Below are positions 15,683-34,237 of a stretch of DNA of 64,000 nt, piece by piece. The stretch is from positions 49,510-113,509 of the IMG/VR virus record IMGVR_UViG_3300042346_000702; one strand, written 5' to 3'. Numbering within the stretch: the stretch's first letter is position 1; each line of letters begins with the position of its first letter. The notes under the pieces are model-generated. The model saw only the letters and a list, made by a program, of their open reading frames with translations, made no database searches and was not told the origin of the DNA. This DNA comes from a virus. Both the position numbers and the translations under genes were made by a program.

Positions 15683-17379
15683 TGGGATGTGGGTGCTCAG
15701 GAGCTAAAGCTTCAGAAAATGTAGATGGAGAATGGACTGATGTTCCGGCAATTCAGCTCAAAGGTGAGACTGATGAATGCTTTGTCAAACGTATAGGACC
15801 ACAGCCTCCCCAACCAGAACCTGGCTCAACTGCGCCAAAAGATCACATCGTTACAGGTTCAATTCCAGTTGATTGTAAGATGAAAGTTGATACGACGTTC
15901 AAAATGTCTGATGGCAGTCACCCAGTTACTTGGGACTTTGTTATCAAAGATGAACAAGGTAATGTCAAAACTCCAGCTGACTTAGGTCTAACTTATGATA
16001 ACTCAACCGGTCATTTGAGCGGAACCGTCAAAGACGAGTTTGAAAAGAAGACTTTTACTGCAACACTCAAAGCACGAGCACAAGCGGATATTCCAGAGCT
16101 GGAAATTGTAGCAAGTGACCCCAACAAGAACACCATTGATGAGAAGACATATCAGATAGTACCAAAGAAGTGTAACGATGATGACCTTCGATTGATACAT
16201 CCTAATCCCAGTGCAGTAATGACATCAGGTTATGGGTGGCGAATTAGAGGAGACACACACGAAAGACAGTTTCATAAAGGGGTTGATTTAGCAACCGGTG
16301 GTAAAGGTAAAATCCTAGCTGCTGCTGATGGTGTTGTTCAGCAGGTCGTTAAACCACGTGCGCCCAACGATAAAAGTTATGGTAATATGATATTGATAAA
16401 GCATGTCAATTCATCAGGCAAATTATTGGCAACAACTCTATACGGTCATCTTAGGGAAATATATGTTGAAAAAGACCAAACTGTAAAAGCAGGCGATGTA
16501 ATTGGCCATGAAGGTAATACTGGAGCTTCACGCGGAAATCATTTACACTTTGAAGTAAAACTTGGTGGTACTACTCATGATGACCCAATGAAGTATATCA
16601 ATGGCAAAATCAAAATTGCAGCTGGAGCAGAACAAGGAGCAACAGACCCTAACGTTCCACCTACAAATGTGCAAACTGTTCAGAACACAGACAAAGGTAT
16701 TACCCAAGAAAAAGTTCAGGCAGCTGAAGACTGTAAGCCAATTCCACTATTGACTGAACCCGCTAATGCTGAAGATAAGGTTGTTGGGGTAAAACCGGGA
16801 AGAGTAATGCCGGGTGGTGATTGTATGCCACCAGGATGGACTCCACCTCCGCAAAATCAAATAGCAAAACAAATCAAAGACGTAGCTTTAGCAAACGGAG
16901 CAACACAAGAAGAAGCACGCTACATGGTTAAGATTGCATTCTTAGAAAGTACCTATAACCAGTATGCTGATGCGCATAAGAAAAACCCTGAATCACATGC
17001 TCTTGGTTTATTTCAAATGCAGCCTGCAACGGCTGGGAAATTTTATGCTGAAATAGGAATAGCTTCGCCTACGTGTGAACAACGATGCAATGTTGAACTT
17101 GCTACTAAAGCAATGTTAAGAATGGTAAAGTATGAAGGTAAAGGTTACGATAGTTTTCATGCAAATGGAACTATCGCCGGTGCTAATAAAGGACAAGTTT
17201 GTAATAATGCATATACTCAAGGGTACTCATCTTTAACCCGTGCAGAGTTCATGTATATGTCACATGGTCAAGGTCAAGAAGGTATGAGGAAAGGAACTCC
17301 CGGTGGTTCAGGTTTTCTTCATCATTTCAGAAAATCTGGTCCGTCAGAACAACAATTAGACCAATACATGGCTTCTTAG
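15682..17379 (+). CDS. Two-domain endolysin: M23 peptidase plus lytic transglycosylase (565 aa)
   Basis: Residues 65-165 look like a beta-sandwich (Ig-like) domain. Residues 175-310 are an M23 metallopeptidase with the zinc ligands His198/Asp202 (HKGVD) and His289 (HLHFEV, 287-289). Residues 395-555 are an SLT/goose-lysozyme-type domain with catalytic Glu422 (FLESTYN) and ALGLFQMQPAT. The protein starts with an odd Cys-rich MGCGCSG and has no normal signal peptide. It follows the spanins. It may be the endolysin, or a virion-borne tail lysin; the lysis context favours the first. Confidence 0.85.
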   Translation: MGCGCSGAKASENVDGEWTDVPAIQLKGETDECFVKRIGPQPPQPEPGSTAPKDHIVTGSIPVDCKMKVDTTFKMSDGSHPVTWDFVIKDEQGNVKTPADLGLTYDNSTGHLSGTVKDEFEKKTFTATLKARAQADIPELEIVASDPNKNTIDEKTYQIVPKKCNDDDLRLIHPNPSAVMTSGYGWRIRGDTHERQFHKGVDLATGGKGKILAAADGVVQQVVKPRAPNDKSYGNMILIKHVNSSGKLLATTLYGHLREIYVEKDQTVKAGDVIGHEGNTGASRGNHLHFEVKLGGTTHDDPMKYINGKIKIAAGAEQGATDPNVPPTNVQTVQNTDKGITQEKVQAAEDCKPIPLLTEPANAEDKVVGVKPGRVMPGGDCMPPGWTPPPQNQIAKQIKDVALANGATQEEARYMVKIAFLESTYNQYADAHKKNPESHALGLFQMQPATAGKFYAEIGIASPTCEQRCNVELATKAMLRMVKYEGKGYDSFHANGTIAGANKGQVCNNAYTQGYSSLTRAEFMYMSHGQGQEGMRKGTPGGSGFLHHFRKSGPSEQQLDQYMAS

Positions 17380-17954
17380 AATTCAGCGTACTCGTCCAAA
17401 TCATTTTCAATTAGTTCTCGTTGACACTGTACAATGTTTCGATTTTTAGGGTCAATATACTTTAGAACAATTTGAAATGCTCTATAAGTATCCATTGACA
17501 TATCAATAGTTTGAAGGTATAAACTTCGTAAGTCTTTGATTTGTAGAACACCAAGCATATGAGATTCAATTGCAGGCATCCACAATGATTTGCATGATTT
17601 GACCTTAGTTCCGATACCTTCAAATGAAGTGATTGGATTGTATCGTAAATCAATCATTTGAGCTCGTGGAGGAATACCTTTAATCGAAGTCAATTCATTA
17701 TGTCTTGCTCTAAAATCACCACAACATTCAAGTGGAAAGTTCTTCATTGACTTCAAATTACAATTAGAAACATCAAAACCGACAACTATACCAAATGGGA
17801 ACTTTAGCTCATTATCTTCTACTAAATATCGCCAATTGATAGATGAAAATTTCAAATCTACTTTTTCACAATCAACTCGACCGTTTGAATTGAGAGAAAG
17901 AAAGGGTGCTAAGCCAGATTCCCCAATCAGTCTTTCAATTTCAGAAGCTTTCAT
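17376..17954 (-). CDS. Leucine-rich-repeat-like protein (192 aa), paralogue A
   Basis: The middle part reads like irregular leucine-rich repeats (FDVSNCNLKSMKNFP, FRARHNELTSIKGIP, MIDLRYNPITSFEGI). The C-terminus CQRELIENDLDEYAEF is nearly the same as that of the protein at 18260-18913, so they are paralogues. The frame opens with TTG at 17990, but the ATG at 17954, four bases after the upstream stop with TAAGGA in front, is more likely. It overlaps the convergent endolysin gene by 4 bp. Function unknown; a protein-binding role is inferred from the repeats. Confidence 0.65.
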   Translation of the reverse strand: MKASEIERLIGESGLAPFLSLNSNGRVDCEKVDLKFSSINWRYLVEDNELKFPFGIVVGFDVSNCNLKSMKNFPLECCGDFRARHNELTSIKGIPPRAQMIDLRYNPITSFEGIGTKVKSCKSLWMPAIESHMLGVLQIKDLRSLYLQTIDMSMDTYRAFQIVLKYIDPKNRNIVQCQRELIENDLDEYAEF

Positions 17955-17958
17955 TTCC

Positions 17959-18195
17959 TTACCAAATACCAATCTTTGGAGAAGCAGCAACTAGCATTAA
18001 AAACACAAAATAGAATGTAAGCAACAAGAAAGCCATATGCCACTTACCACGCATGGTCAATATAGTTCCACAAATTGCAGCAAACATCAAACTGCCAAGA
18101 ATTGCATTTACCCCAATGAAGATTGATGCAATTGCACAACCTAACCAAAACTCTGGCAAGTGATTATAAACTCTTTCCGGTACGTACATCGTCAT
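17959..18195 (-). CDS. Small membrane protein (78 aa)
   Basis: Two to three hydrophobic segments cover residues 17-40, 36-48 and 54-72. The start has an AAAGGAGT ribosome site. It is followed within 4 bp by paralogue A of the LRR pair, so the two are cotranslated. No family recognised. Confidence 0.65.
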   Translation of the reverse strand: MTMYVPERVYNHLPEFWLGCAIASIFIGVNAILGSLMFAAICGTILTMRGKWHMAFLLLTFYFVFLMLVAASPKIGIW

Positions 18196-18259: not shown

Positions 18260-18913
18260 TCACATTTCAGCGTATTCATCTAAATCATTTTCAATTAGTT
18301 CTCGTTGGCAATCAATCATGTTAGGGTTTTTAGAAGATAAATGCTTATTGACAATTTTTAGCATTAGAAATAATTCAACTTTATCTTTCGTAAGAAACTC
18401 TGTTGTTACAACAGTTTTCAAACCTTTGACTTTTAGCAGACCTAAGATATGACTTCTGACAGTGTCAGGAATTGCGAGGAGTGTACATTCGGTTAGCTTA
18501 CCTGCAATACCGTGTAGAGAAGTGATTGGATTTTTTGAAAGGTTCAATGTCTTGTATTTGCACATTGGCAATTCATTGATAGATGAGATGTTGTTCTCGC
18601 TAGCATCGACCATATTAGCTAAGTATGGAAAAGCATAAAGCGAGTCTAATCCTAATCTTTTAAAGGAGATGTTACGAACTGCACCAAAGTGAAAACCTAA
18701 CTTACGATGGTCAATATCTCCAGTAGTCAGTTCTTTTTCAACTGTAAATTCTACTACATTCAGATTGACAAAACCATAACTATCAACTGTTAGTTCACGT
18801 TTGTCAGTTCTTAGTGCTCGTGTTGCAATGAAACGATGAACTCTTTCACGTTCGTCTTGTATTTGTTTATCTTTTTGGGAGTAGCCACCAACGTTATTCA
18901 TCGAGTTCAACAT
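18260..18913 (-). CDS. Leucine-rich-repeat-like protein (217 aa), paralogue B
   Basis: Repeats ISFKRLGLDSLYAFP, MVDASENNISSINELP and TLNLSKNPITSLHGI resemble leucine-rich repeats. The C-terminus CQRELIENDLDEYAEM matches paralogue A. The ATG at 18913 sits downstream of an early-type promoter with a large inverted repeat, whose right arm overlaps the ribosome site (GTAGGG). Function unknown. Confidence 0.65.
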   Translation of the reverse strand: MLNSMNNVGGYSQKDKQIQDERERVHRFIATRALRTDKRELTVDSYGFVNLNVVEFTVEKELTTGDIDHRKLGFHFGAVRNISFKRLGLDSLYAFPYLANMVDASENNISSINELPMCKYKTLNLSKNPITSLHGIAGKLTECTLLAIPDTVRSHILGLLKVKGLKTVVTTEFLTKDKVELFLMLKIVNKHLSSKNPNMIDCQRELIENDLDEYAEM

Positions 18914-18992: not shown

Positions 18993-21857
18993 TTATGCAT
19001 CTGGCAATTCATCAGATTTTGCAAGACGTTTTGTGATTTTAGATGCCATGATTTGCAACTTAGATATTTCACTTTCAATGCCATCTTCTTCCTCTTGATC
19101 AGTCTTGAAGTTTTTGTGGATAACTCCAGCTGCATCTAATGCGGCGATCAATATGACATTAATCCTATCGTTCGCAATCGAATGTATCTGTAATGAAAAC
19201 GCAACACCTCTAAAAAAGTTTTCAAGTAAAGATACTTTTTTAGACTCATCTAATATAATCCCGTTGGGAAGTACATCGTTACTCAAATCTTTTTTAGTAA
19301 ACAGTTTATCATTAACAGCAAGTCTTAGTACAGGGTGGTCATGATCAAAGATAAATTTCTTTACTGATGCATCATTATCAATTTTACTAGTAAGTACGTC
19401 TGCTAAATTTTCTCTAAGTGTTTGAATGTCAGCATTTTGCAAATAAACTAAAAACGAATCATTTTCAGCTATTTTATCTGAACCACCTTCTAAATATTTT
19501 CCGATTACTTTGTCTAATGAAATTTCTTTAACATTGACTGCTTTTCTATAAAAGAAATTTTCACCTAAATCAATATCATCACTATGCATAATATATGCTT
19601 CTAAATCATGATAGAAGAAATCTTCAACTGCGTTATGTTTAAACAAAATAAATTTGGTATTTTTCTTTATTGCTTTAAAAATCTTTGCACGTACTTTACC
19701 TTCTAATTGCATCAATTCTTCTTGCTTCATCGAATTAAGATCAAGTTTTTTAATCTTATTCATTTGTCGATTAATAGATCTCCCCATACCAACATATAAC
19801 TGATTATATTCACGCGGCGAAATATAAATTTCTTGACCTTCACCATGTTTTCCAAGGTCCCAAAAGAACGGACGATGATCTGCCGCAACTTCTGGCGATT
19901 TAGTTTCAAATTTGTTAGCCAATAATTTAACAATTGCTAAAGACAATTGATGTATTTCTTTAGGCGCATCTGGTATTTCGTTTTTCTCATGAGATAAATA
20001 ACTTAAAGTATCTTTCCAAGAACTTTTTGCATCCATGATATCAAGAACATCTTGCATATGTTTAGTAAGACGTTCAGCTCCAGTATCATCAGGGTTAATA
20101 GCACCTAGCATAATAGCAGAAGATGGAAGTTCTAATAATTTTCCGTTTCCTTTATCACTTGGTCCAAAGTTCTTTTCAAGCAATACTCGTCTAATGCCGT
20201 TGAATACTTTTGGAGAATTTCTATTCAACTCGTCAAAGAAAATAAGATATTTATATTGTCTAGATTCATATTCTTTTTTCTTTTCATTAAAATCTTTTGG
20301 AAATTCTTTTTCTAGTTTCTTCAAATACTTTTTATCTTCTTCCTTGATTTTTTGCATCAATAGCTGATATAAAGATGGCATTGAAAAAATTGTTTCAATG
20401 CCATCTGGATCATCTTCATTTGAAGATGGTAATGGTAAACCTGAAACATCTTCAGAAGTAAGTGTTGAACAATCAAGGTCAATAAAGCGAAGATCTAATT
20501 CTTTAGCCAAATCATATGCTTGTGCAGTTTTACCGATACCTGGAAGACCAGCAATAATAGGAACATACTTACGCATATCACCAAGTTTCATCTTGGTTTC
20601 AATTTGATGTTTTAAGGTATTTCGCCAATCAGATGCAGAGTTTTGAGCTGTAGCTGAAACTTCAAATCCAGAAGTTTCATGTATCAAAGTTGCTGTAGCT
20701 TCAAGAACTTTTTTAGCTAAACTTGAATGATCACCTTCAAGATAATTTCTAAAATTAGTTTTAACGTTTGTCATCAAATTAATTGCATCTTTTTCATCTT
20801 TTGCCGGAAGCGATGCATTGATATAAAGTAATAACTGTTCCCAACGACGTGGCGAAGTTCTAACATCAGACGCAATATCGTTATGGCTCATGTCTTCATC
20901 ATCTAAAATATGATGAAATCTATTGATTAAAGCAGGTTTCAATCTAATGTGTTTATCATCTTCAAACTTATTGACTAACCAAGTAAACCATTCGTCTTTT
21001 GATGGGTTTTTAATTTCAACATTTTCAAACTGGAAGTTCTTTTGTATTTCTGAAAGACCTTCGTCATGCATATTAGAAGCGTAAACAACATAAGCACTTT
21101 TTGGGATGTCATGATTACCAATCTTACCATTTAGAATGCCACGTAACATATTTTTAATACGCGGAGAATTTTGACGAAAATATTCATCAAGAAAAAGAAT
21201 AACCTTGAATTGTTTACGAATATCTGAAATCTCTTCTGGTAATTCAGTTGGAGTTCCACCTAAAGCTTCATATGTCGCAATTACATCTTTAGAGTTTTTG
21301 TATATATTTTTCAAATGTTCATTATCTGAAACAATATTAACTTTTTTCAATGCAGTATATAAATTGCTATCAGCTAATACTACTTTATATAAATTATTTT
21401 CTTTATCTTTTGATCGTTTCAGTGAAGTAGATTCAGCAGTTTCTTTATTTTTTGAAGTATCAAAAACAATAAATGGAATATTGATAATATGTTCTTCAAC
21501 AATATGTGGTGCTTCAACAGTAATAAGGTCAATACCTAATACTTTTGCAAGTAAGTTAATACGTTGTGTTTTACCTGTTCCTGGGTCACCGGTCAAAAGC
21601 ATACCAGCGTACTGTTTAAAGTCACGCTTATTTGCCATGTTTTCGAGAATGTCTTCAAACAATTCAACAGTTTGTTCAAGTGATGAACTTTTCGGTTTGA
21701 ACTCTGGAATTTTTTCAGAAACCGCTTCAGGTCCATTACCCAAAGCATTTCCACCGGGTTGAACACTTTTGTTTTTTCTTGGTGCTGCCATTTCCAATAT
21801 AGTCATATCGACGGTGTCAGTAGAAGATTTTTTAGGTGTGAGGTGTGAGAACTTCAT
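18993..21857 (-). CDS. Double-AAA MoxR-like ATPase (954 aa)
   Basis: Two AAA+ modules are visible. Module 1 has Walker A GDPGTGKT (90-97) and Walker B VILFLDEY (D224, E225). Module 2 has GLPGIGKT (437-444) and LIFFDELNR (D542, E543). Sequence around them (DEYFRQNSPRIKNMLRGIL; DELNRNSPKVFNGIRRVLL) is MoxR/AAA_5-like. The last 300 residues have no recognised domain. MoxR ATPases usually act with vWA proteins, and a vWA gene lies 5 kb away in the same Ter region. Late promoters, not early ones, lie upstream of its small neighbours. Likely role: ATP-driven protein remodelling. Confidence 0.85.
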   Translation of the reverse strand: MKFSHLTPKKSSTDTVDMTILEMAAPRKNKSVQPGGNALGNGPEAVSEKIPEFKPKSSSLEQTVELFEDILENMANKRDFKQYAGMLLTGDPGTGKTQRINLLAKVLGIDLITVEAPHIVEEHIINIPFIVFDTSKNKETAESTSLKRSKDKENNLYKVVLADSNLYTALKKVNIVSDNEHLKNIYKNSKDVIATYEALGGTPTELPEEISDIRKQFKVILFLDEYFRQNSPRIKNMLRGILNGKIGNHDIPKSAYVVYASNMHDEGLSEIQKNFQFENVEIKNPSKDEWFTWLVNKFEDDKHIRLKPALINRFHHILDDEDMSHNDIASDVRTSPRRWEQLLLYINASLPAKDEKDAINLMTNVKTNFRNYLEGDHSSLAKKVLEATATLIHETSGFEVSATAQNSASDWRNTLKHQIETKMKLGDMRKYVPIIAGLPGIGKTAQAYDLAKELDLRFIDLDCSTLTSEDVSGLPLPSSNEDDPDGIETIFSMPSLYQLLMQKIKEEDKKYLKKLEKEFPKDFNEKKKEYESRQYKYLIFFDELNRNSPKVFNGIRRVLLEKNFGPSDKGNGKLLELPSSAIMLGAINPDDTGAERLTKHMQDVLDIMDAKSSWKDTLSYLSHEKNEIPDAPKEIHQLSLAIVKLLANKFETKSPEVAADHRPFFWDLGKHGEGQEIYISPREYNQLYVGMGRSINRQMNKIKKLDLNSMKQEELMQLEGKVRAKIFKAIKKNTKFILFKHNAVEDFFYHDLEAYIMHSDDIDLGENFFYRKAVNVKEISLDKVIGKYLEGGSDKIAENDSFLVYLQNADIQTLRENLADVLTSKIDNDASVKKFIFDHDHPVLRLAVNDKLFTKKDLSNDVLPNGIILDESKKVSLLENFFRGVAFSLQIHSIANDRINVILIAALDAAGVIHKNFKTDQEEEDGIESEISKLQIMASKITKRLAKSDELPDA

Positions 21858-21877
21858 TTTGGTTTAACTCCCTGTAG

Positions 21878-22093
21878 TTAAAGTCCTAGCATTATTTTTC
21901 TAAACAAATCTGGACGAGATATTTTCATTTCTTTAAGATCTTCTATAAATTCTTCAGTCCATCTTTCATCAGATATACCTAAAGGTTTTCTAATGTCAAT
22001 GTCTTCAACTGGGATATTTAGAGGATTACGCTCAAATAAAATATTTTCAGTTGGTAGTTCAATATTGTCAGACGATAATTGATTTAGTCTCAT
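21878..22093 (-). CDS. Hypothetical protein (71 aa)
   Basis: Acidic, with a helical C-terminal half (DERWTEEFIEDLKEM). It ends 20 bp before the AAA ATPase start and shares its transcript, so it may be a small partner. A late-type promoter lies 46 bp upstream. No family recognised. Confidence 0.55.
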   Translation of the reverse strand: MRLNQLSSDNIELPTENILFERNPLNIPVEDIDIRKPLGISDERWTEEFIEDLKEMKISRPDLFRKIMLGL

Positions 22094-22138
22094 ACTATTA
22101 CTCTCTTGCTTGTATTTTAGTTTATGATAAAGATAAAC

Positions 22139-22146
22139 TATTTATT
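22139..22146 (-). promoter_or_regulatory. T4-type late promoter (AATAAATA)
   Basis: 7 of 8 consensus bases, upstream of the 71-aa gene and the AAA ATPase. Confidence 0.55.
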
Positions 22147-22155
22147 GAGTAATAG

Positions 22156-22186
22156 AATATGAGAGTTAGGTTATAACTCTCATATT
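22156..22186 (-). terminator. Hairpin terminator-like element
   Basis: Perfect 13-bp inverted repeat AATATGAGAGTTA / TAACTCTCATATT with a 5-nt loop, just after the 65-aa gene. The T-run is weak on the minus strand, so it may act in both directions or protect RNA ends. Confidence 0.65.
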
Positions 22187-22197
22187 GCTTTATAATA

Positions 22198-22395
22198 TTA
22201 TACTGCTTCCGGAATAATTACTTCAGGTTCAGGAACTACAACTGGAGCTGGAACTACAACTGGTTCAGGAACTACAACTGGTTCAGGAACTACAACAGGA
22301 GCAGGTACTGGGGCTTCTTCTGAAGAAAGTTTGAAATCTATACGATAGTCTTTTTTAGAAGCAGCATTTAGAAAAATTGATAAATCGTCTTGCAT
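22198..22395 (-). CDS. Small protein with Pro-Val repeat tail (65 aa)
   Basis: Residues 1-25 are ordinary and partly helical. The rest is a run of PEPVVV/PAPVVV units that must form an extended, possibly polyproline-like tail. A perfect late promoter and a good ribosome site precede it, and a hairpin follows, so it is its own late transcription unit. It could be a spacer or a surface protein of the virion. No family recognised. Confidence 0.6.
   Translation of the reverse strand: MQDDLSIFLNAASKKDYRIDFKLSSEEAPVPAPVVVPEPVVVPEPVVVPAPVVVPEPEVIIPEAV
22210..22306 (-). repeat. Tandem repeat coding for PEPVVV units
   Basis: About five 18-bp units of the type ggttcaggaactacaact repeat almost exactly inside the 65-aa gene; copy number could vary between isolates. 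Confidence 0.75.
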
Positions 22396-22425
22396 TGGTT
22401 ATTCTCCTTACATAAAAGTGTATTG

Positions 22426-22433
22426 TATTTATA
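22426..22433 (-). promoter_or_regulatory. T4-type late promoter (TATAAATA)
   Basis: Perfect consensus 30 bp before the 65-aa gene. Confidence 0.75.
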
Positions 22434-23208
22434 CAATTTGAAGAGAAGTTCCACAATTACTACAAAACTTTGATGTAGCTTTATTCAACTTTCCACAAGT
22501 CTTGCAAGTCGGTTTAGCTTTTACGGTGATAGGCTTTTCAACTCTTACCCCACTTTGTGCTACTTCTCCAACTAGCTGAAGTGTCATTGCATGAACTTCA
22601 TCTTCTAACCAAAGTGGCAGACAGGTTTCAAATGCTTGGTCAGAGATACTACCTTCAACAGTGATACCGACATTTGATACCGATGCTACTGACGAGTGAG
22701 CGTTACAAGCTAAAATTTCTGATACTTGGCCACCAAAAAATCCTTCATCACCAATTGATTGACCTGGTACCATTCCACGAACAGTTGATGTCCAAACAGG
22801 TGGATAATGACGATAAGTTGGTTGCATCATTGGTGTCGGAATTGGCTGCACTTGTCTTTCGAACTGGTATTCAATTCGAACAAGACCATCATCAATCTTA
22901 ATGCCGCGATGATTTTCAATTGATTCAGTTCTTTCAATGAACTTGAATCGATTGCCAACTGAAGTAAGATTACCATTTCTAATGAATCGTTCTAAGTCAA
23001 TAGATTCATTTGGTTTGATGATTAGCGAACAGCCTTCAGTGACTAACTGTCCATCAATCCAAACCTTGACAGAAGCTTTTTTGGAATGTAGATTTTTGAG
23101 AACGATAGAGTATTCGCAACCATAAGGTAGGAAGACTTGTTCTCCACTTTCACGTAGGATTTTGCCGTGTGCTTTTATCGCAAGAGCGAAGTTCTTTTTA
23201 TAGACCAT
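22429..23208 (-). CDS. Beta-domain protein with C-terminal zinc ribbon (259 aa)
   Basis: The N-terminal 115 residues form a beta-rich domain (EYSIVLKNLHSKKASVKVWIDG, PNESIDLERFI, LVRIEYQFE). A Pro-rich linker follows. The last 25 residues are a CxxC...CxxC zinc ribbon (CKTCGKL...FCSNCGTS). The frame begins with TTG at 23238, but the ATG at 23208 has AAGGAG at 9 bp and is chosen. A weak late-like sequence (CAAATAAAT) lies near 23265. Function unknown; binding to nucleic acid or protein through the ribbon is possible. Confidence 0.65.
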   Translation of the reverse strand: MVYKKNFALAIKAHGKILRESGEQVFLPYGCEYSIVLKNLHSKKASVKVWIDGQLVTEGCSLIIKPNESIDLERFIRNGNLTSVGNRFKFIERTESIENHRGIKIDDGLVRIEYQFERQVQPIPTPMMQPTYRHYPPVWTSTVRGMVPGQSIGDEGFFGGQVSEILACNAHSSVASVSNVGITVEGSISDQAFETCLPLWLEDEVHAMTLQLVGEVAQSGVRVEKPITVKAKPTCKTCGKLNKATSKFCSNCGTSLQIV

Positions 23209-23290
23209 GAGATGATACTCCTTTGTCGATTTTGACAAGACGACTGGCTAACGTCTTAGAAATTTATTTGAGCCAATAGAAAAGAGTTGT

Positions 23291-23325
23291 GCTGCCGTGA
23301 CGTTTTAAGGATGAAACCCGGCAGC
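23291..23325 (-). terminator. Stem-loop between genes, possible terminator or structured leader
   Basis: GCTGCCG (23291-23297) pairs with CGGCAGC (23319-23325) across a 21-nt loop. On the minus strand the stem is followed by CTCTTTTCT. It is GC-rich compared with its surroundings and lies in the 140-bp gap between two minus-strand genes. Confidence 0.5.
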
Positions 23326-23348
23326 CCTGTATAACCTTTAGTCTTTAC

Positions 23349-23531
23349 TTAGATGATAATGAATAACATTATTACTAAAGCTGTTCCCCAAACAATCCAT
23401 GGATGTATTGCTCCACAACAAAGACTTCCATCATTAGAAGGCATTGCAGGTTGGTTTACATTGGTTGCGGTATCAATCTTTGATACTTTTCTGGCTGCTG
23501 CCTTTAGACGGTCTGATTCTTTTTTGTTCAT
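23349..23531 (-). CDS. Tail-anchored small membrane protein (60 aa)
   Basis: A basic N-terminus (MNKKESDRLKAAARK) is followed by a linker and one hydrophobic segment at the very C-terminus (WIVWGTALVIMLFIII). It lies 21 bp after the 97-aa gene and shares its transcript. It may be a holin-like or membrane-tethering protein; no family recognised. Confidence 0.55.
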   Translation of the reverse strand: MNKKESDRLKAAARKVSKIDTATNVNQPAMPSNDGSLCCGAIHPWIVWGTALVIMLFIII

Positions 23532-23552
23532 AATACTTTGTAGAGAATATGG

Positions 23553-23846
23553 TTATTTGGTAGGAGCTGCATCCAAGAATTTTTGGTATGCTAACTCGAT
23601 TGCAAGATTAACAAGCGAACGGCCAATTGCTGATTGTTGGCTTCCAAGTTCTTTTCCAATGATATCAAAAGCGGCATTGAACTTAGCATCGCCGGTCACT
23701 AATGTGATATCAGATGCTACTTCTTTTACAGCTTTTAGAGCAATTGGTAAAAGAATCTTGAGTTCTTTTTGAATACCAGATTTGAAAAGAACGGCTAAAA
23801 AGTCGCCAAGTTCGCCAAGTAGTTTTAGTATTGCAGTTTTGAACAT
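23553..23846 (-). CDS. Hypothetical protein (97 aa)
   Basis: Mostly helical, with an amphipathic N-terminus (FKTAILKLLGELGDFLAVLF) and two further helices. It is late-expressed judging from GATAAATA 35 bp upstream. It pairs with the membrane protein that follows. It could be part of a holin or head-internal set, but nothing is diagnostic. Confidence 0.5.
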   Translation of the reverse strand: MFKTAILKLLGELGDFLAVLFKSGIQKELKILLPIALKAVKEVASDITLVTGDAKFNAAFDIIGKELGSQQSAIGRSLVNLAIELAYQKFLDAAPTK

Positions 23847-23881
23847 TGTAGTTCTCCTATAATTGTGTTTGATTCAATCTG

Positions 23882-23889
23882 TATTTATC
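23882..23889 (-). promoter_or_regulatory. T4-type late promoter (GATAAATA)
   Basis: 7 of 8 consensus bases, 35 bp before the 97-aa gene. Confidence 0.6.
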
Positions 23890-23944
23890 AAACAATTTTT
23901 TACGTTTATAGGAAAACCAACAAATGACATTATTCGAAAGAACA

Positions 23945-24003
23945 AAGGATGGACTTTCATCCATCCTTACGTTTCTATTCAGTTTTGATTTTGGAAACTG
24001 AAT
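23945..24003 (-). terminator. Two tandem hairpins ending the Ter operon
   Basis: ATTCAGTTT / AAACTGAAT (23977-24003) and AAGGATGGA / TCCATCCTT (23945-23968) follow the stop of terD. On the minus strand the second stem is followed by TGTTCTTTCG. Confidence 0.7.
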
Positions 24004-24014
24004 GATCATTCTTA

Positions 24015-24581
24015 TTAGCTATAGCCACCGACAAATTCACCCAAACCGATGTCAAACATAGCACCAACACCAGCGAAAGTAAATTCACCATTTTGTTTGA
24101 AGAATGAACCGACTTGGCAAGCAGTAGCACCAGCACCTTGTTCGTCAAGGTCATAGAATGCAATTTCTTCACCTGTATCAGCATTCAGGATTTTAATACC
24201 AGCTTCAGTAATTTGACCAAAAGTATGGCCACGTTCTTTAGCTTTGTCGATTGTTACGACAATCGACACTTCATCAGCATTGGCTTGAGCAGCCAACTTA
24301 TCGATATTGATGTAGAGTTCTTCAACACCACTACCACGTTCGTCTTTGGTTTTCCATGCAATGCCATGAGCCGGTGTTTCATTGTTGAAGAAGACCAAGT
24401 ATTCATCGCCAATCAGCTTAGGGCCATTTGGAGTATTGGTCAAAATGAAAGCAGATACATCCAGGTCAATTGGATTGACGTTGCCATTCCACCACAAATG
24501 AACCGTAATGTTTTTTAGAGCTGGAGCAGATTTGGTCAAATTGATTGAACTGCCTTCAGATTTGTTCAGATTTATAGCCAT
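24015..24581 (-). CDS. terD: TerD-family tellurium resistance protein 1 (188 aa)
   Basis: The sequence follows the TerD/TerE pattern along its length: INLTKSAPALKNITVHLWW, then DLDVSAFIL with the calcium-binding acidic residues, FFNNETP, a GSGVEELYINIDKL turn, VVTIDKAKERGHTFGQ and YDLDEQG. TerD proteins are calcium-binding, membrane-associated stress proteins. The length is normal for the family. The leader is long (about 130 bp from a possible own promoter). It is the last gene of the Ter group, and two hairpins follow. Confidence 0.88.
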   Translation of the reverse strand: MAINLNKSEGSSINLTKSAPALKNITVHLWWNGNVNPIDLDVSAFILTNTPNGPKLIGDEYLVFFNNETPAHGIAWKTKDERGSGVEELYINIDKLAAQANADEVSIVVTIDKAKERGHTFGQITEAGIKILNADTGEEIAFYDLDEQGAGATACQVGSFFKQNGEFTFAGVGAMFDIGLGEFVGGYS

Positions 24582-24655
24582 ATGAGTATTTCCTCGTTTT
24601 TATGTTTTATCAAAATTTTATGTTTTGTACGAAAAATCAATTAGAGTATTACATA

Positions 24656-24666
24656 ACGGTCACCGT
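24656..24666. repeat. Small palindrome in the terD leader
   Basis: ACGGT C ACCGT lies in the leader between the putative terD promoter and its start, beside a direct repeat of TTTTATGTTTT. It may be an operator or RNA hairpin. Confidence 0.4.
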
Positions 24667-24710
24667 GTTTATTATTCAGTATAGTTAGAACAATGTTTCA
24701 TTGAAGTTAT

Positions 24711-24741
24711 ATTATACTCTAAACTTTTGTCATTGTGCCAA
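24711..24741 (-). promoter_or_regulatory. Putative promoter of terD 1
   Basis: TATAAT (24716-24711) is preceded by TTGGCA at 19 bp. The -35 is less good than in the early promoter set. Confidence 0.45.
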
Positions 24742-24748
24742 GTTAGAC

Positions 24749-25315
24749 TTACTTGTAGCCTTCAAAAAATGCTACAAGTTCCAGCTGAAAACCTTGACCT
24801 ATACCTTGGAAAGTAAAGCCTTCATCAGTTTGATAGAAAGAACCGACTTGAATTGCCCAAGAACCAGGAGCTAAGGTGTCAAGGTTGAACAACGCAATTG
24901 GTTGATCATTTTGGTCAAAGATTTCCAACTTTGCATCTTTGACCTGATCAAATGATTGCTTGCGGGGTTCAGCTTTATGAATGGTTGATACCAAGCTAAT
25001 TTCTTTGACCGCTTCAGAAAGCTTTTTGATGTCGATATAAAGCTCTTCGAAACCGCCTGACAGTTCATCTTCAGTTTTCCACACTGAACGGTCTGGTGTA
25101 GCTTCTTGATTGAAGAAGACGAAACCTTCTTCAGATAAAAGCTTACCATCAGCACCCAATAGAAAGGCTGAGATATCTAAGTCATACTTAGGGAAGACAT
25201 TAGTAGGGGTGACCCATGACATCCTAACCTTTACTTTTGAAAGATAGTCAGATGCTTTAGTTAGATTGACTGTTTGTTTCTTTTCGAGCGAAATTACATT
25301 TTTACTTGTTGTCAT
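24749..25315 (-). CDS. terD: TerD-family tellurium resistance protein 2 (188 aa)
   Basis: It has the same length and plan as its neighbour: VNLTKASDYLSKVKVRMSW, YDLDISAFLLG, FVFFNQEATPDRSVWKTEDE, FEELYIDIKKL, STIHKAEPRKQSFDQ, LFNLDTLAPG. Identity to protein 1 is moderate, so the duplication is not recent. Acidic calcium-site residues (DLD; E-E after the glycines) are kept. It starts inside the end of the protease-like gene (14-bp overlap), so it belongs to the Ter operon. Confidence 0.87.
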   Translation of the reverse strand: MTTSKNVISLEKKQTVNLTKASDYLSKVKVRMSWVTPTNVFPKYDLDISAFLLGADGKLLSEEGFVFFNQEATPDRSVWKTEDELSGGFEELYIDIKKLSEAVKEISLVSTIHKAEPRKQSFDQVKDAKLEIFDQNDQPIALFNLDTLAPGSWAIQVGSFYQTDEGFTFQGIGQGFQLELVAFFEGYK

Positions 25316-25724
25316 TGTTTTTACCTATTTTTGAAAAAGACCAATCAGGTTCTGAAATTGCAGCTATTCCCGTTAGACGAAAATCATCACCAACAATACC
25401 ATCAGTTGAAGTTGTTGCAACACCAATACTTGAATATGCTAACGGTATTTTTTGAGCCATATCTTCAAACAATTTACCATGAAAAGTATCAAGTGATTCA
25501 ATATCGCATTTCAATTCATTTCCGTCCATTCTAAAGTTTTCACATTTGAATGCTGCTCTATCTAAATCAACTGAAGTCTTTGGCCAATATGGCATTCCAA
25601 GCTGGCCAAGCATTGGTTTATCTTTACACTCTTCAACTATCTTTTCAAGAACTGATTTTGGATAAATTCGCTGATTACTATTGACTTCATCAGCGATTAA
25701 GATTCTTCCTGTTAGTTTAACCAT
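25302..25724 (-). CDS. Short prohead-protease-like protein inside the Ter operon (140 aa)
   Basis: RIYPKSVLEKIVEECKDKPM, LGQL, VDLDRAAFKCENFRMDG, GKLFEDMAQKIPLAYSSIGV and DDFRLTGIAAISEPDW follow the order of motifs in T4 gp21-type prohead proteases, where a His in an ELDHP-like segment and a Ser in SSRG are catalytic. Here the first segment reads LGMPYWP and has no His, while the Ser pair (SS) stays. It is also shorter than gp21. So it is either a degraded enzyme or a reused binding domain. It overlaps both neighbours, so it is translated with TerC-like and TerD proteins. Confidence 0.6.
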   Translation of the reverse strand: MVKLTGRILIADEVNSNQRIYPKSVLEKIVEECKDKPMLGQLGMPYWPKTSVDLDRAAFKCENFRMDGNELKCDIESLDTFHGKLFEDMAQKIPLAYSSIGVATTSTDGIVGDDFRLTGIAAISEPDWSFSKIGKNNDNK

Positions 25725-26751
25725 TAGTAACTATTCCGCCAATTGCAGATTTGTTGTGTTTGACTGAAGATAGAATTGAAGCACCAATAAACGCAGCACC
25801 TATCAAACCAGTGATTGTTTCAGGGATTTCGAATACAGTATTGATGAACATAATGACCGCCAATCCTAAGATTGCCCAGAAGGCACCGTGTTCCAAATAA
25901 CGATACTGATCAACTGTACCTTTATCAACCATTAGCAATGTCAAGCTTCGGACAAACATAGCACCAATACCTAAACCAATCATAATGATAAAGATGTTGT
26001 TAGATAAAGCAAGAGCACCAAGAACACCATCAAATGAGAAGCTAGCATCTAACACTTCAAGATATAAGAAGCTTGCTAACCCAGATTTTGCAACTGCCAT
26101 AGTTGCATCACCTTCTTCAACGCCAATGAATGCTTCAATACCATCAACCAAAATGTAAGTCACTAAGCCCCAAATACTTGCTATTAAGAATGACAATTCA
26201 TCTTCAGAACCGTGTAAGTACCCAATGATTTTAGAAGTAAAGAATACTAAGACTAATGTCATTGCAGCTTGTACAGCTTCAATCTTTCCAAGAAAAGTCA
26301 GCTTTGATTCTACTTGACGTAACCAATGAACTTCTTTTTCATCGTCAATAAAGAACTTGAAGGCGACCATCATGAGGAATGTTCCACCAAAACCCATGAC
26401 CGATGTATGCACTGATTCGAGAGCATGAGCATATTGTTCAGGTTCAGCTACTGCTAACAAGAAAGATGCTATTGGATTGATACCTAATGCAATCGATACA
26501 ATGATAAGTGGGAAGAGCATTCGCATACCAAATACTGCAATAGCCATACCCCACGTAATGAAGCGATGTCGCCATACTGCATCCATATCCTTAAGCACCT
26601 GAGCATTGACAACCGCGTTATCAAAACTCAAACTTACTTCAAGAACTGATAGAACTGTAGCAATCCAAAGAGCTTGAACGCCACCAATCCAAAAAGCCAG
26701 ACCTAAACCGATTCCAGCAACCCAAAACGAACTCGTAAAATATTTCAACAT
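25717..26751 (-). CDS. DUF475/TerC-superfamily integral membrane protein (344 aa)
   Basis: About nine hydrophobic segments are seen. The motif LEVSLSFDNAVVNAQVL near residue 40, RFITWGMAIAVFGMRMLFPL, and the second half LDASFSFDGVLGALALSNN are the two acidic repeats of the DUF475 branch of the TerC superfamily, often found beside ter genes. Acidic residues inside the membrane suggest metal-ion binding or transport. It is in the middle of the Ter operon and overlaps the protease-like gene. Confidence 0.85.
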   Translation of the reverse strand: MLKYFTSSFWVAGIGLGLAFWIGGVQALWIATVLSVLEVSLSFDNAVVNAQVLKDMDAVWRHRFITWGMAIAVFGMRMLFPLIIVSIALGINPIASFLLAVAEPEQYAHALESVHTSVMGFGGTFLMMVAFKFFIDDEKEVHWLRQVESKLTFLGKIEAVQAAMTLVLVFFTSKIIGYLHGSEDELSFLIASIWGLVTYILVDGIEAFIGVEEGDATMAVAKSGLASFLYLEVLDASFSFDGVLGALALSNNIFIIMIGLGIGAMFVRSLTLLMVDKGTVDQYRYLEHGAFWAILGLAVIMFINTVFEIPETITGLIGAAFIGASILSSVKHNKSAIGGIVTNG

Positions 26752-26778
26752 CAGATTTTCCTCTTTTATTTGTAAAAA

Positions 26779-27045
26779 TTAAATTGGTAATAGCGTATAA
26801 AGTAAAGCTAAAATAACAATCATCGAAATAACTGTCACCATCAAACCAAAAGTAGTTATCAACACCATCCACGCTAATACTGAAATAGCAAGAATGAAAG
26901 CAAACTTCGCCTTCATCAAAACTCCAGCTGTTATTCCAACAATAATACTCAACAAACTACCGATAAGCGGGTCGAGTGAAAATGCCAGAATAAAAGCTGA
27001 TAGCGAAGATAGACCTAGTTCAAAACGTCTATCTGAATTAGTCAT
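26779..27045 (-). CDS. Small membrane protein of the Ter operon (88 aa)
   Basis: Three hydrophobic segments occupy most of the chain (LSSLSAFILAF, LLSIIVGITAGVLM, ILAISVLAWMVLITTFGLMV onward). It lies 3 bp after the vWA gene and 27 bp before the DUF475 gene, so it is cotranscribed with both. It may be a partner of the DUF475 protein. No family recognised. Confidence 0.65.
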   Translation of the reverse strand: MTNSDRRFELGLSSLSAFILAFSLDPLIGSLLSIIVGITAGVLMKAKFAFILAISVLAWMVLITTFGLMVTVISMIVILALLYTLLPI

Positions 27046-27048
27046 AAA

Positions 27049-28044
27049 TTATTTTTTGAATTTTTGAAACCATGTTGCAAGTTCTTCATTCAACATCGCT
27101 TCAAATAAATCGTCATCATCAATAGCACTGATGTCATTGACTGGAACAAAACCAGCATTGGGATATTTGTCGCCGAGTTGTTCGATGAACCTAAAGTTTG
27201 CACTACCAATACCCATCAACAACCAATAGATGTTTTCAGATTGTGAATCTTTGATGACTTTTTCAGCTTCACGAGCATCATCATTTTCGCCATCAGTAAT
27301 GAAGATAGCCAGAGTAGGATCAGCAGGTTTAGCACCAAAGCCGAACAAACCTTTCTTACCTTTAGAAGAATTGACGATTGCTTCAAAGGCCGGTGCATAA
27401 GAAGTACCACCCCAACCCATCTTGTCTTCGATTTCTTTTTTGACATAGTTTTCCATCAAAGGAAGTGTCACCGCTTTGACAGCTTGAGTTTTGTTGTGGA
27501 ATGCAAATACATCAACAGTTCCGTCTTGGTCAACTTTGAGTGAAATCGCAAGAACTCGTTCAACCACATCTTGTACCGTGCCATCGTTATACAAGTTTTG
27601 CATTGAACCAGATTTGTCAATGCAAAGTTTGACTTGACACGGAATGTTGTTCATCTTGCGTTTTTCAAGAACAATGCCGACAGATGCAACACGTTTGTTT
27701 ATATCAATAGCCATATGTTTATACCTTATGTTTATAAAATTACTGCATTGAGGTTGAATACAACCTAACTTCTTCCCATACCAATTATGCTTGATAGAAC
27801 TTCCACATATTTGGCAAGTATCAATACACCCTTCTCGTAAGATACGACAAGGTGGTGGTTCTGGTGGAGCAAGAACAACTTCTGAAAATTGTGATTCCAA
27901 TTTGACAAATTGTCGAACAATTTGTTTGAATGCATCTCGTTCTGATTGAGGACGATTCTTCCAATCGCCATAACCTTTGCGTGCTGCATCAAAATCCCAA
28001 AATGACTGTTCAAGCATGTCTTCTATTTTAGTATGATTTTGCAT
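27049..28044 (-). CDS. Zinc-ribbon plus vWA protein, TerF-like (331 aa)
   Basis: Residues 77-100 (CQIC...CIQPQC) form a zinc ribbon. Residues 136-331 are a von Willebrand A domain of the kind found in TerF/TerY proteins, with a full MIDAS: D143, S145, S147 (DKSGSM), T214 (GGTSY) and D251 (ITDGEND). It overlaps the upstream 119-aa gene by 22 bp and is followed by the membrane genes. vWA proteins of this type work with MoxR ATPases, here the 954-aa protein. An internal ATG just before the vWA domain could give a shorter form. Confidence 0.82.
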   Translation of the reverse strand: MQNHTKIEDMLEQSFWDFDAARKGYGDWKNRPQSERDAFKQIVRQFVKLESQFSEVVLAPPEPPPCRILREGCIDTCQICGSSIKHNWYGKKLGCIQPQCSNFINIRYKHMAIDINKRVASVGIVLEKRKMNNIPCQVKLCIDKSGSMQNLYNDGTVQDVVERVLAISLKVDQDGTVDVFAFHNKTQAVKAVTLPLMENYVKKEIEDKMGWGGTSYAPAFEAIVNSSKGKKGLFGFGAKPADPTLAIFITDGENDDAREAEKVIKDSQSENIYWLLMGIGSANFRFIEQLGDKYPNAGFVPVNDISAIDDDDLFEAMLNEELATWFQKFKK

Positions 28045-28382
28045 TTATGAGTTTTTAGATATGTTAGAACTTCATCGTATTGTTCCTTGGGAACATCTAT
28101 CACCAGTGTTTGATTTGTTTGTTGTTGTAACCATTTCTTGATAAACGGTTGATATGATTTGAACTGCCATGCTTTTGCTTTATCTGATGCATTATCATCA
28201 CAGTTCAAAAAGCCATCTTCAATAGTTATGATTGCACTATCGCTAAGATCCTCTTCATCAATTTCTCTAACAGGTTCATCATCAACCGAAAGAATGTCTT
28301 CTTCAACCCATAAACCTTCTGGCCAAAAGACATTGTCCTTCATGAATTCTTTGTATTGCTTACCTGATAGTTTGACTTTCAT
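28023..28382 (-). CDS. Hypothetical acidic protein of the Ter operon (119 aa)
   Basis: The N-terminal part is very acidic (WVEEDILSVDDEPVREIDEED), the C-terminal part helical and basic. The early promoter's TATAAT ends only 6 bp before the ATG, so the messenger would have almost no leader; another start at residue 14 is possible but has no ribosome site either. It overlaps the vWA gene by 22 bp. No family recognised. Confidence 0.6.
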   Translation of the reverse strand: MKVKLSGKQYKEFMKDNVFWPEGLWVEEDILSVDDEPVREIDEEDLSDSAIITIEDGFLNCDDNASDKAKAWQFKSYQPFIKKWLQQQTNQTLVIDVPKEQYDEVLTYLKTHKCKIILK

Positions 28383-28388
28383 ATGTCT

Positions 28389-28417
28389 ATTATACTACAA
28401 AAGATGGCAAAAGTAAA
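28389..28417 (-). promoter_or_regulatory. T4-like early promoter touching the start codon
   Basis: TTTACT (28417-28412), 17-bp spacer, TATAAT (28394-28389), preceded by the conserved CTTCACAAAA block. The start codon lies at the expected +1. Confidence 0.75.
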
Positions 28418-28420
28418 TGG

Positions 28421-29698
28421 TTAGTTTTGTGAAGACGGTAACACTTTCCCACGTGCATCCGATACAGATGTTTGACCTGATGCAATAGACGCATACAGTC
28501 GTTTCATTTCATCCATACGGTCAGAACTTTCGATACGTTGCTTACGGCCAGCTGCATTGATGTTAGAGACTTCTTCTAGTGTAGCAAGTAAGTTCTCATG
28601 AACCTGTTCTGCAGTCTGCATATCGACAATGCCACGTTGATTCAATCGAGTAGTTTCGATTGCATTCTGCTTGTTAGCAGTCGAGTTCGCAGAAATCATA
28701 GCATTGTTTGCATCATCAACAGCAGATGCAAGCTTTGCCGCACGATTGAGTTCTTGCCCGTCGATAAACATCCTAATCTGCTTCTTCCAAAGTGGGATAG
28801 TCATTGTCTTGATGGTATCAAACTTTTCAAGCAACGTAACCGCATTGTCTTCCATTTGAGCCAGATTAGGAGCATCTTGCAAGCACATCAATTGAAAGCT
28901 TTTCATGTTAGCAATCTTCTTGTCTAACCTGTCAAGATTACTACCCATACGTTGTAAAGTTTGAGCTTGAAGAGCATCAGTCACTTGAGCTTGCAACTTG
29001 TCATATTCAGCGACTTTGATATTGTATGCTTCAGTAGCATCCTTTATCAATTGGTCCAGGTTCTTGTAGTCTTGCAAGTTTGATTGATACATCGTCTGCA
29101 AACCTTTGACTTTGTCAATGATACGACGGTTTGCTTGATCGACTTCACCAATCACTCGGTCCATTTGGGTCGATACATTGTTGAATTCAGATAACAATTG
29201 CTCTTTAGTATCAACGAAGTTTTCTTTGACTTTTGCAACTAAACCAGTCAGCCAACCGCCGGCACCATCTTTTGAATGGTCACCAGCTTTTGGAAGATGT
29301 AAAGATTTGGCCATTGTCAAAATGCTTCGCATTTGGGTTTCGACAAAATCAACATCAGCATCTTTGACTTCTTTGAGCATTTCGTCAGACTTAGAAGAAA
29401 TAGTCGCCATGACATCTTTACCAAAATCCAAGATACCTGTTGAACTGTCAAACGTTGAAAGCAAATTGACTACTCGATGTGATGAAGCACCCGTTTCTGC
29501 AATTGCTTTTGGAGACACTGGATTGAATGCTTGTTGCACATTAGATATTGGCACCGTTGGTGCTGTCACTGGAGCAAATGTCTTGACTACAGGAGTTGTT
29601 GGTGTTTGTGGTTTATTGATTACGAACTGATTATCTTTCATCTGTTGTTGAACAAAATCTGACGTTGCTTGTTTAGGGGTAAAAGGAGAAGCGGCCAT
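28421..29698 (-). CDS. telA: TelA-family toxic-anion resistance protein (425 aa)
   Basis: Long helical coiled-coil protein. The C-terminal half follows the TelA (PF05816) signature: DAPNLAQMEDNAVTLLEKF, TIPLWKKQIRMFI, AIETTRLNQRGIVDMQTAEQ, NLLATLEEVSNI. The first 80 residues are low-complexity Pro/Thr-rich and not part of the family. TelA proteins are cytoplasmic partners of Ter systems. Its own early promoter lies 34 bp upstream. Length is normal. Confidence 0.88.
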   Translation of the reverse strand: MAASPFTPKQATSDFVQQQMKDNQFVINKPQTPTTPVVKTFAPVTAPTVPISNVQQAFNPVSPKAIAETGASSHRVVNLLSTFDSSTGILDFGKDVMATISSKSDEMLKEVKDADVDFVETQMRSILTMAKSLHLPKAGDHSKDGAGGWLTGLVAKVKENFVDTKEQLLSEFNNVSTQMDRVIGEVDQANRRIIDKVKGLQTMYQSNLQDYKNLDQLIKDATEAYNIKVAEYDKLQAQVTDALQAQTLQRMGSNLDRLDKKIANMKSFQLMCLQDAPNLAQMEDNAVTLLEKFDTIKTMTIPLWKKQIRMFIDGQELNRAAKLASAVDDANNAMISANSTANKQNAIETTRLNQRGIVDMQTAEQVHENLLATLEEVSNINAAGRKQRIESSDRMDEMKRLYASIASGQTSVSDARGKVLPSSQN

Positions 29699-29731
29699 CG
29701 TGTTAGTCTTCCTGTTGAAGTAAGTGAAGTA

Positions 29732-29760
29732 ATTATACTACAGTTTCATCTGTTTGTAAA
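29732..29760 (-). promoter_or_regulatory. T4-like early promoter of telA
   Basis: TTTACA (29760-29755), 17-bp spacer, TATAAT (29737-29732). It overlaps the last codons of the upstream gene. Confidence 0.8.
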
Positions 29761-32193: not shown

Positions 32194-33393
32194 TCAGTTG
32201 TAATCAGTATGATTGCCTTTGCGAGTCATGTAAGCATCAGAACGAGTCTTCACTACTACACGACCAAGCACTGGGTCTCGACGTTCTACAACAGGTTTGA
32301 TAACCACACCTTCACGAACATGCTTGACATTTGGCAATGCACTTTCAGGGTCATTAGCAAGCTTACGTGCTAACTCTCTAGAGTATGGACCACGATACAC
32401 AAGAGGCACTCGAGTAATACCAGTCAAATTGCAAAAGTTATCAAGTACCTTATCGTCCAACCAGAAACCACGACCGCGATAGCCAATATAGACATCAAAC
32501 ACTCGGAACTCTGGAGCTTTTAGACCATAGTCAAAACCGGTTTGAACAGCACCACCAAAGACTTCGCCAACGACAGTGATACATTCAAAGTTTCCATCGG
32601 TACCCATTACTAATGCATAGTTAGTAATAGCTTCCCAGTATTGACGAGTACCATTCAAGTACAAATTACCAGCATTAGCTTCATTGTTCTTGAAGAACAG
32701 ACCTTGAGCACTCAAGCCTTTAGAACCAACAGCAATAGCTCCAGCACCAACTTCAGTCCATTCATTGATGTTATGACGATTTAGACCATCGCCAACCACA
32801 CAAGTCACAGAGCAGTTAGTACCGTGCAACTTGACAGTCATTTGAACTTCTTCGTCTTCAATCAGAACATGTGGATATTTAGCAAGGTCTTCAATGTCGT
32901 AATTGACACCTACATCCTGACCAGCATTGAACACTTCACCAGACATATGCACAGGGATTGGTGGCTCATACTTAGTGACACCTAAGATTTCGGCAACATC
33001 TTGGCCTTCTTCAACGATACAGACTTCGCCGTCTTCATCGCTAATAGCATATGCGTTATTAGTACCAGGAACATCATCCATTAGTACAACAGGAATGCAA
33101 ATCCCGAGACTAAAAGCATCGCGAAGTTTGACAGCTTTGACACGGTCACCTTTCGAACCGGCCAGCAAGCCTTTGTCTTTTTCTTCGTTCCAAAATCCGT
33201 ACTTCTTCAGTACCCATTCAGGGACGACAGAATTTTCACCGATGTATGCGACTAAATCGCCAGTCTTATAGAGACCTTTACGACATACAACTTGATTGCC
33301 TTCAGGGTCGCCAATGTGGCCGATTTCAAGAGCATCCGCATTTGGATGCTCAGAGATAAAGATTTTTTGTACAAGGACTTCAAAGTTACTCAT
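32194..33393 (-). CDS. RNA ligase, DraRnl/Rnl5-like (399 aa)
   Basis: Residues 1-170 form an OB-fold-type domain (SEHPNADALEIGHI at the start). The ligase domain has motif I KLHGTN with the nucleotidyl-accepting Lys188, motif IIIa/IV (GEVFGG; EGVVIKP near 366) and motif V (VVVKTRSDAY). This order of N-terminal OB domain then Rnl2-like catalytic domain is that of the Deinococcus DraRnl (Rnl5) group. It would seal nicked or broken RNA. It follows an own ATG with an AGAAAT site and is one of two RNA ligases in the window. Confidence 0.85.
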   Translation of the reverse strand: MSNFEVLVQKIFISEHPNADALEIGHIGDPEGNQVVCRKGLYKTGDLVAYIGENSVVPEWVLKKYGFWNEEKDKGLLAGSKGDRVKAVKLRDAFSLGICIPVVLMDDVPGTNNAYAISDEDGEVCIVEEGQDVAEILGVTKYEPPIPVHMSGEVFNAGQDVGVNYDIEDLAKYPHVLIEDEEVQMTVKLHGTNCSVTCVVGDGLNRHNINEWTEVGAGAIAVGSKGLSAQGLFFKNNEANAGNLYLNGTRQYWEAITNYALVMGTDGNFECITVVGEVFGGAVQTGFDYGLKAPEFRVFDVYIGYRGRGFWLDDKVLDNFCNLTGITRVPLVYRGPYSRELARKLANDPESALPNVKHVREGVVIKPVVERRDPVLGRVVVKTRSDAYMTRKGNHTDYN

Positions 33394-33395
33394 TG

Positions 33396-34112: not shown

Positions 34113-34123
34113 TTGAACTTCTC

Positions 34124-34225
34124 CTACTTCGTAGCGTTTTCAGCTATTACCAAAACCAATGCCATAAAGACGCATAGCATTACACCCAATTCAATAACTC
34201 TAATAATGACTTCTGTAGGTGCCAT
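34124..34225 (-). CDS. Single-span membrane microprotein (33 aa)
   Basis: The frame starts with ATG at 34225 behind GGAGATAGT, encodes VIELGVMLCVFMALVLVIA as one hydrophobic span, and stops 11 bp before the next gene. It fills the gap between two genes of one transcript. Short, but the ribosome site and the hydrophobic pattern support it. Confidence 0.6.
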   Translation of the reverse strand: MAPTEVIIRVIELGVMLCVFMALVLVIAENATK

Positions 34226-34237
34226 AATACTATCTCC

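Follow-up and report, generated by a model that had tools for sequence, protein, structure and literature searches.

A phage-borne Ter gene set in a probable early operon that also encodes a predicted inactive homologue of the T4 prohead protease

The tellurite resistance-type (Ter) genes studied here lie on the minus strand of a 64,000-nucleotide window, which corresponds to positions 49510-113509 of the 113.5-kb linear IMG/VR record IMGVR_UViG_3300042346_000702 (coordinates refer to the window unless the record is named). Many large phages carry Ter genes. TelA, a vWA protein, a DUF475/TerC membrane protein, two TerD proteins and a double-AAA MoxR-like ATPase, all encoded within 18993-29698, had been predicted to constitute one phage-borne stress module. 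Each of these families is backed by Pfam and the TelA-vWA-DUF475-TerD core holds together; the ATPase, however, is found in no Ter locus examined, and the gene just before it bears a promoter motif of the late type. Within the 11 kb, two promoter classes and a probable terminator after the second terD gene separate a probable early Ter operon (23945-29760) from a probable late gene group (18993-23889). We favour, with a probability of roughly 0.55, an early membrane-linked Ter operon that would provide envelope protection and superinfection exclusion, and in which an unexpected homologue of the T4 prohead protease gp21, termed S77L below, would act as a binding subunit. The record also carries T4-type head genes, including the portal (Portal_T4, 3e-73), gp21, a protein that occupies the gp22 position and the major capsid protein (Gp23, 3.6e-96), and thus covers part of a large T4-type phage whose sequence is incomplete. 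No relative at the DNA level was found in the phage collection searched.

The operon is compact, with the gene order telA - 119 amino acids - vWA(TerF) - 88 amino acids - DUF475/TerC - S77L - terD - terD on the minus strand. The first gene, telA (28421..29698, 425 amino acids, PF05816 3.5e-49), is followed by the gene for a 119-residue protein with relatives in T4-like phages (28023..28382, phrog_4254), which overlaps by 22 nucleotides the gene for a TerF-type vWA protein of 331 amino acids (27049..28044, PF10138 6e-42). Next are an 88-residue hydrophobic membrane protein that matches no family (26779..27045) and the 344-residue DUF475 protein of the TerC superfamily (25717..26751, PF04332 7.5e-102, TerC 8.7e-18), in which the conserved DUF475 residues are retained. 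The S77L gene (25302..25724, 140 amino acids) overlaps the DUF475 gene by 8 nucleotides and the first terD gene by 14 nucleotides. The two TerD copies, each of 188 amino acids, are encoded at 24749..25315 (PF02342 4.1e-41) and 24015..24581 (PF02342 5.1e-37). The profile searches suggested with the original prediction thus gave Pfam matches for TelA, vWA, DUF475 and TerD alike.

Two classes of promoter motif were distinguished in the record. The early, sigma70-type motif TTTAC[AT]-N16-18-TA[TC][AG]AT, with TTCAC also allowed, occurs 16 times against 2.4 expected, and stands upstream of 10 of the 128 genes against 0.12 expected (no more than 2 in any of 300 simulations; a single case on the opposite strand, used as a control), telA and the 119-residue gene being among them. 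It appears as a phage-wide motif, ATTTACATTTG...GTATAATAGA, at 29760-29732, 32161-32133, 18976-18948 and other minus-strand sites, and seven early sites share a common TTTAC...TATAAT core when aligned. The putative promoter of the Ter operon (TTTACA-N17-TATAAT, 29732..29760, minus strand) is located 34 nucleotides upstream of telA, and a second one of the same class (TTTACT-N17-TATAAT, 28389..28417, minus strand) just before the 119-residue gene. The latter promoter ends 7 nucleotides from the ATG (28382-28417, minus strand), so the transcript of the 119-residue gene may be leaderless. Behind the second terD gene lies a probable intrinsic terminator (23945..23968, minus strand), which has a 10-bp stem and a T-rich tail and is the proposed end of the operon.

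The T4-like late motif NATAAATA precedes 15 genes where 2.7 would be expected (no more than 7 in any of 300 simulations; 3 on the opposite strand), and these include baseplate, scaffold-position and tail genes. No gene carries both motifs. For the late motif only the upstream-position test is informative, as a count of the pattern TATAAATA across the full window shows no enrichment. Three copies of the late-class motif lie on the minus strand downstream of the Ter operon: GATAAATA at 23882..23889, 36 nucleotides upstream of a 97-residue gene; TATAAATA at 22426..22433, before a neighbouring 65-residue gene; and AATAAATA at 22139..22146, 46 nucleotides before a 71-residue gene. The last of these genes directly precedes that of the double-AAA MoxR-like ATPase (18993..21857, minus strand, 954 amino acids), with a gap of 20 nucleotides.

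The ATPase contains two AAA P-loop regions (PF00004 1.6e-13, two stretches) and matches phrog_1297 (4e-33), while the MoxR-specific profile bpMoxR reached just E 0.03 and PADLOC matched just the P-loop regions of IetA/PtuA. Since no Ter locus examined encodes a relative of it, and since the late motif before its preceding gene differs from the early motif at telA, this protein is very probably a late neighbour and not a Ter member, and a single module that includes it was rejected. Orthologues of the ATPase were detected neither in the phage or plasmid collections nor in IMG/VR with the patterns used. Tandem-AAA proteins with weak similarity are encoded ~28 kb from the Ter genes in RHph_Y65 and ~110 kb from them in XaC1, in the latter case among virion genes.

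These observations bear on the proposal that the 11 kb as a whole serves virion assembly as one module, in which the vWA protein would be the chaperone partner of the MoxR-like ATPase and structural proteins would be processed by the S77 protein. In group 2.2 jumbo phages, a role as virion-assembly chaperones has been proposed for MoxR-vWA pairs (PMC7824862); in the present case a large T4-type phage encodes, probably late, an AAA ATPase that may be MoxR-like, and both the late-type motif ahead of the ATPase and the position of the XaC1 protein would agree with such a function. Unlike the group 2.2 proteins, however, the ATPase has a double AAA region and no adjoining DUF2201-type vWA protein: the PF13203 (DUF2201) profile has no match in the record, which is a fragment, and no adjoining vWA or metallopeptidase partner was found, the nearby vWA protein being encoded in the early-type Ter unit. 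This vWA gene and S77L both lie in a stretch headed by early-type promoters and closed by a probable terminator, the ATPase is missing from the other Ter loci examined, and S77L lacks the catalytic His while an intact gp21 is present in the same phage. A second vWA-like protein of 377 amino acids with a visible DxSxS motif is encoded elsewhere (record 33155-34288, L004:13655-14788; phrog_26613), with a late-type motif 38 nucleotides upstream; it is a candidate partner of the ATPase, and a better one than the Ter vWA protein. A single assembly module is therefore improbable, and of the virion-assembly role raised in the original prediction only the part that concerns the ATPase remains plausible, such a role being unlikely for the Ter genes given the early-type promoter at telA. 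The clean separation of this promoter and its genes from the probable late genes makes the envelope and superinfection idea testable.

The phage-borne Ter core is already known and is not new to this phage. Ter operons of jumbo phages were described earlier, and their use against superinfecting phages was proposed (Iyer et al. 2021, PMC7824862). By tblastn, 268 phage records were matched with TelA, 269 with the TerF-type vWA protein, 110 with TerD and 37 with DUF475. A scan of IMG/VR with a DUF475 alignment yielded 55 loci, some of which derive from the same cultured phages and several of which are partial contigs. In profile searches of their open reading frames, all four core genes are present in 29 of the 55 loci and the order telA-vWA-DUF475-terD in 16, as well as in CcrColossus and RHph_Y65, so that the expectation that related phages keep these genes together is borne out. 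Carriers of this core include phages of Caulobacter, Rhizobium, Acinetobacter and Klebsiella. The nearest locus, L006 (IMGVR_UViG_3300042317_001647), has the matching order and shows 75% identity in DUF475, 59% in TerD (second copy here against its single TerD), 53% in TelA and 46% in the vWA protein. By-eye reading of L006 also suggests CHASE2-type adenylate cyclase-like, ATP-grasp-like and curlin-repeat-like proteins. Profile searches of the IMG/VR Ter loci found no relatives of the 954-residue ATPase, S77L, or the 119- and 88-residue proteins.

The operon agrees with CcrColossus gp219-222 and RHph_Y65 EVB97_228-231 (PMC7824862) in the four core families, their order, their compactness and their location on a single strand. 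It differs from both in having two terD genes, a zinc-ribbon extension of the vWA protein, the 119- and 88-residue genes and S77L between DUF475 and terD, and the T4-type head of the present phage is a further difference from these Ter phages. In Acinetobacter phage ME3 the genes for vWA, DUF475 and TerD are likewise adjacent and a small extra gene overlaps the end of DUF475; unlike here, phosphoribosyltransferases and a HAD enzyme are added, and the product of the small gene, which lies in the DUF475-terD gap, has no visible resemblance to S77L.

In the favoured mechanism the operon would be transcribed early and its products would assemble into a membrane-linked Ter complex. The DUF475 protein would be the TerC-type metal-handling membrane component, TelA and the zinc-ribbon vWA protein may form a submembrane scaffold, and TerD, a family with a Ca2+-dependent role, could serve as a sensor or effector. 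The complex would shield the envelope while a long infection lasts and keep out superinfecting phages, and S77L would act as a binding subunit. The early-type promoter and the literature on Ter together favour this function over virion assembly. Insertions in terC, terD and terZ lower or abolish phage inhibition, and deletion of terC in K. pneumoniae reduces phage resistance and Zn/Mn tolerance (PMC12054061). In Jug phages, the terD regions were highly transcribed in samples in which structural genes ranked low (PMC12363816).

Several points weigh against this interpretation. The promoter classes are assigned from motif and position only, and in L006 the single sigma70-like site near telA sits ~580 nucleotides upstream. 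None of the Ter proteins matched a PADLOC defence model, and assignment to a known defence family was rejected. The phosphoribosyltransferase and HAD enzymes of the full Ter system were not seen beside the operon, the rest of the 113-kb fragment having had no dedicated profile search. Finally, S77L is without a recognised orthologue.

The reduced gene complement is also what would be expected if the phage proteins disarmed a Ter-type phage-inhibition system of the host by acting as decoys or as dominant-negative subunits: just a core subset is encoded, with no signal-synthesis enzymes seen beside it, the promoter before telA is of the early type, and host terC influences phage resistance (PMC12054061). 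However, the proteins look complete, with an intact MIDAS in the vWA protein and the conserved residues of DUF475 in place, and the core recurs across phages of four host genera (Caulobacter, Rhizobium, Acinetobacter and Klebsiella); we regard a decoy function as doubtful. An auxiliary operon that would help the infected host to tolerate metals and oxyanions (Mn, Zn, tellurite) while a long infection or pseudolysogeny lasts is possible, although we would not expect it. TerC-family proteins have functions in the homeostasis of Mn and Zn and in the metalation of exoenzymes (PMC10550928, PMC12054061), those of B. subtilis loading Mn into exported enzymes at the translocon (PMC10550928), and xenobiotic resistance was among the roles suggested for phage Ter systems (Iyer et al. 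2021, PMC7824862). Against this, a similar partial set in phiPsa374 was considered by its authors unlikely to confer tellurium resistance (PMC9796965), and no metal riboswitch or other Rfam family was found near the operon or its DUF475 gene. Tellurite resistance from the Ter genes of the present phage is likewise unlikely.

The 140-residue gene had been listed as an unknown, possibly phage-specific small part of the module; it proved instead to encode a Peptidase_S77 homologue (PF03420 1.3e-7, phrog_207 2e-13). S77L is homologous in sequence and predicted fold to T4 gp21 (peptidase family S77, PDB 5JBL), with a sequence match of E 1.7e-6 and a Foldseek match of E 2.4e-8 (TM 0.73) for the AlphaFold model, of which the best version has a mean pLDDT (predicted local distance difference test) of 83 while the other four score 48-59. 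Unlike T4 gp21, it is encoded in a Ter operon and not in the head gene cluster. The catalytic residues were compared in an alignment of 61 sequences, comprising S77L and 60 homologues (the phage's own gp21, seven proteins from phage records and 52 from IMG/VR loci). In the 5JBL construct Ala replaces both the His and the first Ser of GVSSRG, which marks these two residues as the catalytic pair. In S77L the motif GELxHP is replaced by GQLGMP, with Met at the position of the catalytic His (His85), which is His in 60/60 other sequences. The catalytic Ser is kept in 61/61, S77L reading AYSSIG in place of GVSSRG, and the Arg of the SSR motif is lost solely in S77L, which has Ile there.

With Met at the catalytic His, S77L is predicted to be inactive and could not work as an ordinary His-Ser protease. 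A function as a second, active enzyme of maturation would agree with the clear homology to gp21, the fold match and the retained SS of the serine motif, but it is highly improbable in view of the otherwise invariant His, the single other His far along the chain, and the loss of both the SSR Arg and, according to the alignment, the N-terminal part of gp21. The C-terminal part is missing as well. The phage's own gp21 is intact (record 21062-21682). In a phylogenetic tree this protein groups with those of XaC1, RAS14 and XacN1 (97/93), whereas S77L falls with Straboviridae gp21 (82/95) on a very long branch, and a duplication of the own gp21 is thus not supported; it is likely but not certain that S77L came from another T4-like lineage. 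Decayed sequence was rejected as an explanation, the reading frame being open and its codon usage genome-like (0.33 bits/codon), similar to that of telA and DUF475.

No S77L orthologue was recovered by an IMG/VR scan with S77L alone; a scan with S77L and Ac42 gp21 kept 80 loci, and alignments of more divergent gp21 proteins were too poorly conserved for scanning. No S77L homologue was seen in the DUF475-terD gap of other phages. As far as our searches show, translational coupling between Ter genes and the gene of a predicted inactive maturation protease has not been reported, and it hints at a possible new use of the capsid-protease fold. Its most likely role, judged from the sequence, is that of a binding subunit. 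In T4 gp21 the active site is blocked by the first residues, which belong to the N-terminal part that S77L lacks (PMC9958956). The enzyme works as a pentamer (PMC9958956), so a dominant-negative role for S77L may be envisaged as speculation: as an inter-phage weapon, an early dead relative of gp21, taken up from another T4-like lineage and unlike the own gp21, could enter the protease pentamers of a rival T4-like phage and block its head maturation. This is unlikely, but if true the operon would join Ter-based exclusion with the poisoning of rival capsid assembly.

The vWA protein had been described as a zinc-ribbon protein with a full MIDAS, and all five residues (D-S-S-T-D) are indeed present, as in 46/46 proteins aligned, this one included. 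Residues 1-110 (27715-28044) form a zinc-ribbon-like extension with a CxxC...CxxxxC pattern that is absent from the 45 relatives, the next longest N-terminal extra length among the 46 being 28 residues. The coding signal of the extension is weaker (0.07 bits/codon), and the start codon therefore needs confirmation.

Among the remaining genes of the probable late group, all on the minus strand, that of the 97-residue protein (23553..23846) encodes a weakly holin-like product (phrog_2609 9e-5) and is probably a late gene outside the Ter set. A 269-residue zinc-ribbon protein is encoded at 22429-23238, with a probable start at 23208; this gene and the 65-residue gene were absent from the original prediction. 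The only relatives found for the zinc-ribbon protein are in the jumbo phages XacN1, where the gene adjoins that of the tail sheath, CM1 and RAS14, in each case away from Ter genes. The sharing of this protein with XacN1, CM1 and RAS14, and the grouping of the own gp21 with XacN1, RAS14 and XaC1, hint at the lineage of the phage.

Five otherwise different proteins of the record end in a shared C-terminal tag, approximately CQRELIEnDLDEYAE, and none of the other loci retrieved shows it. Two of them are encoded at 17376-17990 and 18260-18913 of the window on the minus strand, and three just after gp21 on the plus strand (record 22187-22813, 22813-23406 and 23406-24008). The LIE of the tag presumably fits the gp21 cleavage consensus. 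Several proteins here start with MK..ELFEIAGIKDIDKA-like sequences that resemble T4 capsid-targeting peptides, and the tag-bearing proteins may be capsid-internal or injected proteins.

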